A stretch of DNA of 64,000 bases, from assembly GCA_009783465.1 (NCBI GenBank), contig WRDM01000003.1, positions 1-64,000 on the forward strand, written 5' to 3'. The translations under genes were made by a program, and so were the position numbers. Source of the stretch: Phycisphaerae bacterium. Its GTDB lineage: Bacteria; Planctomycetota; Phycisphaerae; SM23-33. The notes beneath the pieces were generated by a model. That model was not told where the DNA came from. It ran no database searches and saw only the letters and a program-made list of their open reading frames with translations. Positions 5,338-57,233 of the stretch are shown here, piece after piece (position 1 is the first letter of the stretch; every line of letters begins with the position of its first letter).

Positions 5338-6542
5338 GGCCGTTGGCGGCATCCTGCGATTTGGTCGATCGCGTGGCGGCGACGCTTGATGCGTGTGGGC
5401 TGTTTCGCGATGCGCGGTGCGTGCTGGTCGGTGTGAGCGGCGGAGCGGACAGTGTGGCCCTGCTGGCGGTGCTGCGAGAGTTGGCGGAGCGGGCCGGCGC
5501 GATGTGGCGGCTGGCGGCGGCGCATTTGAATCACGGCATTCGCGCGGCGGCGGCGGCGGACGCCCGGTTTGTGCAGGCCTTGTGTGCGTCGTGGCAAGTG
5601 GAGTGTATTGTCGGGGCCGCCGACGTGCCCGCCGAGTCGCGGCGGACGGGAGAGAGCATCGAAGCCGCCGCCCGGCGGGCGCGGTACGCGTTTCTTGCCG
5701 ACGCGGCCGAGCGGGCCGACGCGCAGGCCGTCGCGGTCGCCCATCACGCCGACGACAACGCCGAAACGGTGCTGCACCGCGTGCTTCGCGGCACAGGTCT
5801 GGCGGGACTGGCGGGCATTCCCGTCGAGCGCCCCCTCGGTGCCGTGCGTCTGGTTCGGCCGATGCTGCACTGCCGCCGGGCCGACATCGAACAATTTCTC
5901 GCCGCCCGAGGCCTGTCGTGGCGGGAGGATGAATCCAATCGCGATCTCGACCACCGGCGGAATTTCCTCCGCCACGACCTGCTGCCGCACATCCGCGAGC
6001 ACGTCAATCCGCGCGCGGAGGACGCGCTGCTCCGGCTGGCCGAACAGGCGCAGGCGGCAACGGCGTTCCTGCGGACCGAGGCGGAAAAGGTGTTACAGGC
6101 GGCCGTCGAGGCCGTGCAACGGGACGCTGGCGCTTCACGTGGCGAGGGCGTCTCGCCCTCGTGTCCCGCGGGCATCTTGCCCGCGTCGGGCGTCGAAGGC
6201 GATTGGACGTCTTCCAGTGGCCAGTCGCATGGAACGCACAACGCGGGCGAGACGCCCGCGTCACATTGCGGGCCGCCCGCGTTTTCGGCGGCGGTGCTTG
6301 CGGCAGCGTATCCGGCAGTGCGGAGCGAGGCGATTCGATTGGCCTTCGAACAGGCCGGCCTGCCCGCGCGCGATCTGTCCGCCGCCGTCGTCGCGCGGGT
6401 GTGCGACCTGCTGTATGACCCCGCCGTCAAATCCGTAAACCTGCCGCGAGACTGGCGCCTGACACGCCGCCGCGACGTCGTGCGACTCCTGCCGCCTGTA
6501 TCGCGAGATACAAAGAACCGGCGACACGGAGAGAAAACCTGA
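5334..6542 (+). CDS. tilS: tRNA(Ile)-lysidine synthase TilS
   Basis: TilS converts C34 of tRNA-Ile(CAU) to lysidine with ATP. The PP-loop 'VSGGADSVALL' is at about residues 30-40. It is followed by 'AHLNHGIR', by 'ESIEAAARRARYAFL', and by 'VAHHADDNAETVLHRVLRGT', all in family order and spacing. A GTG start overlaps the preceding stop (GTGA). The C-terminal substrate-binding region is recognisable from 'YPAVRSEAIRLAF' to 'LPRDWRLTRR'. Between the two domains, residues about 267-310 are encoded by a palindromic repeat element (6133-6264) and read as low-complexity Gly/Ser/Pro-rich sequence. The frame is kept, so the enzyme may be functional. Confidence 0.9.
   Translation: MRPLAASCDLVDRVAATLDACGLFRDARCVLVGVSGGADSVALLAVLRELAERAGAMWRLAAAHLNHGIRAAAAADARFVQALCASWQVECIVGAADVPAESRRTGESIEAAARRARYAFLADAAERADAQAVAVAHHADDNAETVLHRVLRGTGLAGLAGIPVERPLGAVRLVRPMLHCRRADIEQFLAARGLSWREDESNRDLDHRRNFLRHDLLPHIREHVNPRAEDALLRLAEQAQAATAFLRTEAEKVLQAAVEAVQRDAGASRGEGVSPSCPAGILPASGVEGDWTSSSGQSHGTHNAGETPASHCGPPAFSAAVLAAAYPAVRSEAIRLAFEQAGLPARDLSAAVVARVCDLLYDPAVKSVNLPRDWRLTRRRDVVRLLPPVSRDTKNRRHGEKT
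6133..6264. repeat. palindromic repeat family D, copy inside tilS
   Basis: Inverted 'CGAGGGCGTCTCGCCCTCG'-type and 'GCGGGCGAGACGCCCGCGTC' units bracket a short spacer. The same family is found at 9686-9822, 16795-16944 and 56110-56245. This copy has a length of 132 bases and keeps the tilS frame, adding 44 codons between the catalytic and C-terminal domains. Confidence 0.8.
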
Positions 6543-16794: not shown

Positions 16795-16944
16795 GTGACG
16801 CGGGCGTCTCGCCCGCGTGTGGCGAGGGCATCCTGCCCTCGCAAACCGTTCCACACGGCCGACGCCATGGTGAAAACCCAGGTATTCCGCATCCGAACGC
16901 GGGCAGGACGCCCGCGAGACACGCGGGCGAGATGCCCGCGACAC
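16795..16944. repeat. palindromic repeat family D, between the BamD-like and LptE-like genes
   Basis: Units 'GACGCGGGCGTCTCGCCCGC' and 'GCGGGCGAGATGCCCGCGAC' form inverted arms, with a second nested pair inside. It occupies almost the whole 182-base gap between two co-directional envelope genes. Confidence 0.8.
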
Positions 16945-55124: not shown

Positions 55125-56123
55125 ATGCAACGAATACCCGGCTTTGGCGAGTTTCCCGCGGAATACGCGTCGGATTTGATTGACCTGTCCGTCGGCGGCG
55201 ATGGGCTGTTTCGCGTCGGCGTAGACGGCGTGCGGCGGATTGTTACGCCGTTGGATCGTAAGGAGGAGTTTGTCTGTTACGACGACAAAACGCTGTGTTA
55301 CATCAAGAGCGCGATGGGCTACCCGGCCATGTATCCGCTGGAGGAGGCCCGGTTTGAAGGCCCTGCCGAGGCGGTGTTGATGGACCTCGACGGCACGAGC
55401 GTGCACAGCGAACATTTCTGGATGTGGATCATCGAGCGGACGACGGCGAAGCTGCTGGGCAATCCGAAATTTGAACTCGAAGGCGTCGACGAGCCGCACG
55501 TCAGCGGACACAGCGTGAGCGAACATTTGCAGTACTGCATCGACAAATACTGCCCGGATAAAAAAGTCGAGGACGCGCGGCGGATTTACTTCGAGGTCAC
55601 GCATCACGAGATGGCGGAGATCACAGCCGGCCGGGGCAGGCCCAACGCGTTCACGCCCTCGCCGGGGCTGAAGGAGTTTTTGCTGGAGCTAAAGGGCCGG
55701 GGGATTAAGATCGGATTGGTGACGAGCGGGCTGTTCGAGAAGGCCTGGCCTGAGATTCTGTCCGCCTTCCGCACGCTGGAGATGGGCGATCCGCTGGAGT
55801 TTTACGACGCGATCATTTCGGCCGGCCATGCTATTCGCAAAGGGCAGGCGGGCACGTTGGGCGAGTTAACGCCCAAGCCGCACCCGTGGCTATACGCCGA
55901 AACCGCCCGCGTGGGGCTGGGACTCGGCAAGGATCGCCGCGCCCGCGTGATCGGTATGGAGGATAGTTCGGCGGGCGTGGTGTCGATCCGGCTGGCGGGT
56001 TTCGCGGCGATCGGCGTCGCGGGCGGCAACATCGTCAAGGGCGGCGTGAGGCCGTTGCTGAATTACGACGTCACCGACTTAGCGGAGGCGCTGCCGGTGA
56101 TTACAGGCGAGGCATTCACGTGA
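55125..56123 (+). CDS. HAD-superfamily hydrolase, 3' end altered by a repeat
   Basis: The product has 332 aa. Motif I 'AVLMDLDGTSVHSEHFWMW' is near residue 86-104. Motif II is in 'GRGIKIGLVTSGLF', the lysine in 'LGELTPKPHPWLY', and motif IV in 'RVIGMEDSSAGVVSIRLAG'. The first 80 residues are an extra N-terminal domain without a recognised fold. The C-terminal codons and 29 bases of this gene are duplicated beyond a family D palindrome (56081-56109 and 56246-56274). The present end (...VITGEAFT) may replace an older end (...VITGG). The function is unknown. Confidence 0.82.
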   Translation: MQRIPGFGEFPAEYASDLIDLSVGGDGLFRVGVDGVRRIVTPLDRKEEFVCYDDKTLCYIKSAMGYPAMYPLEEARFEGPAEAVLMDLDGTSVHSEHFWMWIIERTTAKLLGNPKFELEGVDEPHVSGHSVSEHLQYCIDKYCPDKKVEDARRIYFEVTHHEMAEITAGRGRPNAFTPSPGLKEFLLELKGRGIKIGLVTSGLFEKAWPEILSAFRTLEMGDPLEFYDAIISAGHAIRKGQAGTLGELTPKPHPWLYAETARVGLGLGKDRRARVIGMEDSSAGVVSIRLAGFAAIGVAGGNIVKGGVRPLLNYDVTDLAEALPVITGEAFT

Positions 56124-56245
56124 CGCGGGCGTCTCGCCCTCGCTGGCCATTCCGTGCGACAGGCGCATGAAGAAAATCAAGGCTTTCGCCTAGCCTGACG
56201 CAGGCGGGACGCCCGCGAGACACGCGGGCAAGATGCCCGCGTCAC
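56110..56245. repeat. palindromic repeat family D with 29-bp flanking duplication
   Basis: Arms of the 'GACGCGGGCGTCTCGCCC' and 'GGGCAAGATGCCCGCGTC' type bracket the element. AGCGGAGGCGCTGCCGGTGA plus 9 more bases occur directly before it (56081-56109) and directly after it (56246-56274), identical over 29 bases. Confidence 0.85.
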
Positions 56246-56298
56246 AGCGGAGGCGCTGCCGGTGATTACAGGCGGATAGGTTGTGAACGGCCTGTCGA

Positions 56299-56874
56299 TC
56301 AGCGCAGCGTTCCACGTCCCCCGCCGCTGCCTCTGCCTCCGCCGGGTCCCGAGGAGGACGTCGTGGACGAACCACCGGAGGACGGCGGCGCCGGCGCCGG
56401 CGCGGAATCCATCGACGGCGGAGGCGGCGCGGCTTGTTGGCTGTTGCTGCTGTAGCTGTAGCTGACTTCTTCCTCGAAGCTGATCACGTCGTCGAAGGTG
56501 ACATCCTCGACGGGCGTGTCTTTTCTCGCGAAGAGATAGGTCGGGAATTTATCGAGGTAGGGCCCGCATCGGAATTTTCGGGAGTCCCCGCCGTCGGGCA
56601 TGAGTTCGCCGTATCGGTTCGTGCGTTTGGTGAGCTGCGCGATCATCTGGTCGAGGTCTTCGCCCACCTCGTCAAACTCCCACGGATACGTGTCGCCGTG
56701 CTGAATGCGGTACAACTCCAATTGGTTACTGAGCGTCATCCGGTCGCTCTGACGGGTTGCTTCCCTGGCCATCTCGGACGCGGAACTGAACTTCGCGACC
56801 GCGATGCCGGCCAGGATACCCAGGACGACCACGACTATCAGTATCTCCAAAAGTGTCACACCCGTGTTCTTCAT
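56299..56874 (-). CDS. GspG-like pseudopilin
   Basis: The 191-aa product has a prepilin signal 'GVTLLEILIVVVVLGI', then 'LAGIAVAKFSSASEMAREAT' as in GspG/PilA-type pseudopilins. A short globular part ('LSNQLELYRIQHGDTYPWEF') and a low-complexity Ser/Pro/Gly-rich tail follow. It probably belongs to a type II secretion-like or surface pilus machine, but no other component lies nearby. The start is the ATG at 56874; the ribosome-binding site (AAAGGT) is very close to it, so it is uncertain by a few codons. Confidence 0.8.
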   Translation of the reverse strand: MKNTGVTLLEILIVVVVLGILAGIAVAKFSSASEMAREATRQSDRMTLSNQLELYRIQHGDTYPWEFDEVGEDLDQMIAQLTKRTNRYGELMPDGGDSRKFRCGPYLDKFPTYLFARKDTPVEDVTFDDVISFEEEVSYSYSSNSQQAAPPPPSMDSAPAPAPPSSGGSSTTSSSGPGGGRGSGGGRGTLR

Positions 56875-57007
56875 ACCTTTCGTCGCTTTCACCCCAATCG
56901 CTATTCCCCGCAATACGTACACTACGATTGATTTCGCCCCCAGGCAATTTCACGGGGCAAATATCGCGGGGCTGTCGCATTAAATTTCCGCGTTTTACCG
57001 CGAAACG

Positions 57008-57101
57008 GCTGTGGGCTGTAGGCTGTAGGCACGACCGCTTTTTCGACCTGTTCTTCGGCACGGCATGTCGCGCCTACAGTCTACAGCCTACAGCCCACAG
57101 C
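57008..57101. repeat. inverted repeat family F, copy 2
   Basis: 'GCTGTGGGCTGTAGGCTGTA' pairs with 'TACAGCCTACAGCCCACAGC' across about 55 bases. It lies in the gap between the pseudopilin and alpha-mannosidase genes. Confidence 0.8.
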
Positions 57102-57233
57102 TTAAAACCGGGCAAATTACGATGCAATGGCCCTGCGATGGCTTCGCTTGTCACTGGTCGTTTGTCGCCGTTTGCGGTACACTGTGCCGCGCGTTGCCTG
57201 TTTGATACCCATAAGGAAAACGAGGAAATCGTC

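Follow-up and report, generated by a model that had tools for sequence, protein, structure and literature searches.

The 3′ end of a HAD-family hydrolase gene in the 64,000-nucleotide stretch of DNA analysed here (the window, part of contig C3) carries a REPIN-like palindromic element flanked by an exact 29-bp direct repeat. As the preliminary description had reported, positions 56081-56109 are identical to 56246-56274. On balance, we lean towards the reading that the 126-bp element is a non-autonomous REP/REPIN repeat belonging to the system of a REP-associated tyrosine transposase (RAYT), that it inserted at the end of the HAD gene, and that DNA synthesis at the target duplicated 29 bp as it did so. 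Across the genome, long duplication beside such elements is real and recurrent, yet a minority outcome. The locus (55125-56922) comprises the following features, in which D denotes the duplicated target:

55125..56123, forward strand: HAD-family hydrolase gene with duplicated 3′ end (ORF; Pfam HAD_2 / Hydrolase)
56081..56109, forward strand: D, copy 1, end of the HAD gene (exact direct repeat)
56110..56119, forward strand: 10-nt tail AGGCATTCAC between D and the element (homologue C-termini; (T)TTCAC precedes GTGA in other copies)
56120..56245, no strand assigned: REPIN-like palindromic element GTGACGCGGG...CCCGCGTCAC (GTGACG...CGTCAC; inverted repeats, genome copies and fold)
56124..56142, no strand assigned: left REP hairpin CGCGGGC-GTCTC-GCCCTCG
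56223..56241, no strand assigned: right REP hairpin CGCGGGC-AAGAT-GCCCGCG
56246..56274, forward strand: D, copy 2, abutting the element's terminal GTCAC (exact direct repeat)
56299..56922, reverse strand: convergent gene with an N-terminal methylation motif (ORF; Pfam N_methyl)

The 136 bp between the two D copies (56110-56245) thus consist of the 10-bp tail and the 126-bp element, and their predicted fold reaches -45.4 kcal/mol (z = -6.1 against shuffled sequence). The HAD gene now reads ...ALPVITGEAFT*, its stop codon being supplied by the element's GTGA, and the convergent gene is unaffected by the duplication. The element lacks intact outer arms: its right side lies flush with D and its left side is separated from D by the tail. 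No terminal inverted repeats stand next to D, and the duplication measures 29 bp, not the 9-12 bp of the related arm-bearing elements described below.

To establish which D copy is original, we compared the gene end with its homologues. The preliminary description had proposed that copy 2 (...ALPVITGG*) might be the original end; the two nearest HAD homologues (L039 and L040; 73-74% protein identity) instead end ...ALPV(I/V)LGEA*, matching the GEA of copy 1 (...GEAFT*) and not the ...TGG* of copy 2. This agreement, two residues in two homologues, argues that copy 1 is probably the original gene end, still in its original place, and that AGGCA, the five bases opening the tail, is probably native. 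The remaining TTCAC is probably element arm; alternatively, the whole tail would be a truncated outer arm, X. The bases following D differ between the copies (AGGCA after one, GATAG after the other). A search for the empty site in close relatives gave none, so we infer the order of events: the HAD homologues in relatives are 55-74% identical, and the nearest two have a different downstream gene.

We read the whole draft genome (2.48 Mb, 70 contigs, 69.6% complete) for copies of the element, fetching all stretches and joining them within contigs. This survey recovered 424 hairpins of the element's type in 209 clusters, 126 of which contain two or more hairpins; two further copies lie in the window itself (6139-6264 and 16795-16944). 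Well-ended clusters start with GTGA, GTGG or GTAG and finish with TCAC, CCAC or CTAC. The head is conserved (GTGA 96, GTGG 15, GTAG 15), which defines a GTGA subfamily rather than the classical GTAG type, and paired hairpins with GTGA...TCAC heads mark the family as REP/REPIN-like.

A REP-associated tyrosine transposase, for which the preliminary description had advised a search, is present at C1:1511-2110. The genome contains two Y1-type transposase genes, of which the one on C1 passes the RAYT model (NCBIfam NF047646, 87.9 bits against a cut-off of 80) and appears intact. Hairpins of the element's family flank it on both sides, and the element is therefore REPIN-like by association as well.

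This RAYT, together with its REP hairpins, sits, unusually, in frame inside valS (valyl-tRNA synthetase; contig C1:2-2827, minus strand), after ...FYYLRYPL.. and before ..HVTVATTRPETMLGD. The same insertion point occurs in at least three genomes (G000, which is this genome, G027 and G038), and G021 matches the arrangement on the upstream side; the corresponding loci in relatives are L160, L284, L295 and L296. Uninterrupted frames of 1223-1384 aa contain homologues in G005, G014, G019, G027, G030, G038, G059 and G073, which suggests that several families of the class share the arrangement. A second hairpin element lies in frame in the same valS (C1:727-855). Our literature search found no description of a RAYT inside valS, and this in-frame arrangement is possibly of more interest than the 29-bp duplication.

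The preliminary description would have been refuted had no other copy in the genome carried a flanking duplication, but other copies do carry them. Among 192 hairpin clusters outside the arm-bearing class, six scored 15 or more against 0.13 expected, with the window locus at the top (score 29). When duplications were anchored to element borders, 7 of 92 good-ended clusters scored 15-29, compared with a maximum of 10 in a cross-pair null (n = 400). Random genomic positions (n = 1500) gave a 99th percentile of 11 and a 99.9th percentile of 25.5, a high tail that presumably stems from local repeats. Most other pairs of unique exact direct repeats in the genome look, as judged by eye, like intragenic repeats. 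The seven copies with long duplications (about 15-29 bp) are:

C3 (the window locus): 29 bp; the longest and cleanest, and the sole one with 29 exact bases
C25:16311: 19 bp
C37:11074: 19 bp
C21:25509: 18 bp
C43:19112: 16 bp, extendable to about 25 with mismatches
C40:14214: 20 bp with 2 mismatches
C14:44148: about 28 bp with one mismatch and one gap

In these seven copies one or both outer arms are mostly missing. C14:44148 is a mixed case, with an intact left arm and a duplicated target that starts with arm-like sequence. The sequence on the right of the element at C21 and C25 looks like the outer arm (X′) and also like the target; instead of lying flush, the duplications at these two loci may therefore measure 18 and 15-19 bp and be separated from the element by an arm. 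A further element copy (C19:17616-17717), flanked by 14-bp direct repeats within a long open frame, is possibly another case.

Three of the seven copies (C40, C37 and C43) sit on overlapping stop/start junctions, where D restores both genes: one copy of D ends the upstream gene and the other starts the downstream gene. In the reconstructed empty site at C40:14214, trpB overlaps trpA (...GEELHD* with ATGAC); at C37:11074 a MoxR-like gene overlaps the gene that follows it by GTGA, and at C43:19112 a small gene (ORF) overlaps a cinA-like gene by ATGA. These gene names rest on recognition of the sequences rather than on profile searches. We estimate from an approximate ORF count that some 130 junctions of this kind occupy about 0.2% of the genome. 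Because a simple insertion at a junction would damage a gene, mainly duplicating insertions survive there, and long duplications are therefore over-represented among the visible cases. The junction loci, in restoring two overlapping genes, provide a clear record of single insertion events.

The same hairpin element also occurs as cargo of a genome-wide MITE family with outer arms cAGGGC..CGCAT / ATGCG..GCCCTg, which enclose at least three unrelated interiors. Among 88 candidate arm pairs, which include a few chance ones, 29 show a clear target duplication, of 9-12 bp in every case except an imperfect one of 14 bp; about 2000 mismatched arm pairs, serving as a null, yielded none. One arm-bearing MITE with another interior type (..GGCTGTGGGCTGTAGGCTGTAGG..) lies in the window at about 56968-57134, some 700 bp downstream of the 29-bp duplication. 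Since arm-bearing elements give 9-12 bp, duplication length tends to vary with arm status, being longer where arms are missing. The proposal that the repeat records an insertion with target duplication is accordingly upheld in part: the footprint fits and recurs, but 29 bp is not the rule of the family, because its arm-bearing relatives usually duplicate 9-12 bp. The pattern of short duplications with arms and longer ones without is testable in any genome rich in such repeats.

Under the favoured reading, a copy without intact outer arms would have entered the HAD gene at its extreme 3′ end, and repair-type DNA synthesis would have duplicated 29 bp of target at the same time. This could have proceeded by nicks about 15-30 bp apart around a captured element, followed by fill-in, or by a template switch that copied an element and resumed 29 bp upstream. 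Long duplications would then persist where both copies are useful, one providing an upstream stop and the other a downstream start. Against this reading, duplication is undetectable at most arm-less copies, and about 24 element loci in relatives showed no convincing long unique duplication (the high scores at L290 and L296 fall inside repeats). Moreover, copy 2 serves no obvious purpose at the window locus, and the difference between AGGCA and GATAG after D calls for one more small change regardless of which copy came first. Inverted repeats adjoining the copies, examined as an alternative footprint, exceeded the null at only a few loci. Some arm-less copies (C23:11397-11521, C23:38282-38455, C5:23637-23762 and C9:69645-69794) have inverted repeats directly at their borders, 8-19 bp long and particular to each locus, as though the copy had landed mid-palindrome; there are more of these than in the null.

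A tentative alternative assigns the footprint to the RAYT itself, which would join one element end precisely at a nick, copy tens of target bases by strand displacement and seal the other end imprecisely. It draws on the apparently intact RAYT, on single strands being the substrate of IS200/IS605-like enzymes (PMC8266576), and on the geometry of the seven copies: in all of them D can be aligned flush to the element's right border, with a left tail of 7-19 nt. However, contig orientation is arbitrary and element orientation varies between loci, so chance or the choice of alignment may account for part of this asymmetry; the right-hand bases at C21 and C25 also resemble X′, and IS200/IS605 elements are stated to lack larger target duplications (PMC2817692). 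A minor possibility, likewise, is that RAYT-driven REP insertion natively leaves duplications of this kind, long and variable in length with one junction flush, and that they can be seen only where the copy is recent or the site needs both copies of the target. If true, this would offer a direct trace of REP spread.

Rather doubtful is an aberrant transposition by the enzyme of the arm-bearing MITE family, probably of DDE type, in which a damaged arm would lead to cuts further apart. Long duplications do mostly accompany truncated arms, and possible arm remnants occur at C21, C25 and C37. Copies with intact arms, however, never exceed 12-14 bp, and our search of this approximately 70% complete genome found no matching transposase, the single DDE_Tnp_1 match (C33:390-809) having no such arms nearby, and no parent element of 0.6-3 kb with matching arms and duplication.

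It is improbable that a tandem duplication of D plus element was followed by loss of the second element. Pseudomonas does show REPIN excision and tandem REPIN units including flanks (PMC3116915), but this route would call for a pair of events, including an exact excision, at each of seven loci. An assembly artefact is very improbable: the draft is fragmented and several contigs end inside these hairpin repeats, yet the other loci differ in duplication length and mismatches and restore real gene pairs, which an assembler would not produce. Ku-type end joining was set aside, as Ku was not found in the roughly 70% complete genome, and Cas1-like integration, prompted by the 29-bp length, was dropped because duplication lengths vary from about 15 to 29.

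Collectively, the element is of a known kind, its footprint is unusual and its mechanism is one that we infer; the route of REP repeats into new sites has itself been described as unresolved (PMC8266576). The family resembles REP/REPIN repeats with RAYT (TnpA-REP; GTAG- or CGTC-tagged palindromic repeats) in its paired hairpins, which are present in many copies and bear a short conserved head, in the same repeats flanking the RAYT, and in copies that sit within other palindromes, as reported for REP dimers of H. neapolitanus and T. roseum (PMC3733652). It differs in its head, mostly GTGA or GTGG rather than the GTAG of classical REPs, and in the subset with 15-29 bp target duplications, of which we found no description in the REP literature examined. 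Unlike IS200/IS605 elements, stated to insert without larger target duplication, it has 29 bp here and long duplications at a minority of copies (7 of 92), with none at most others, which weakens the case that this insertion was a standard RAYT event. With MITEs it shares the terminal inverted repeats of those copies carried in cAGGGC...GCCCTg arms with 9-12 bp duplications, whereas the copy at 56120-56245 lacks intact arms and its duplication is 29 bp long. Rickettsia palindromic elements similarly invade coding sequence and can allow read-through (cited in PMC3733652); the difference is that here the gene end was duplicated, not simply interrupted.
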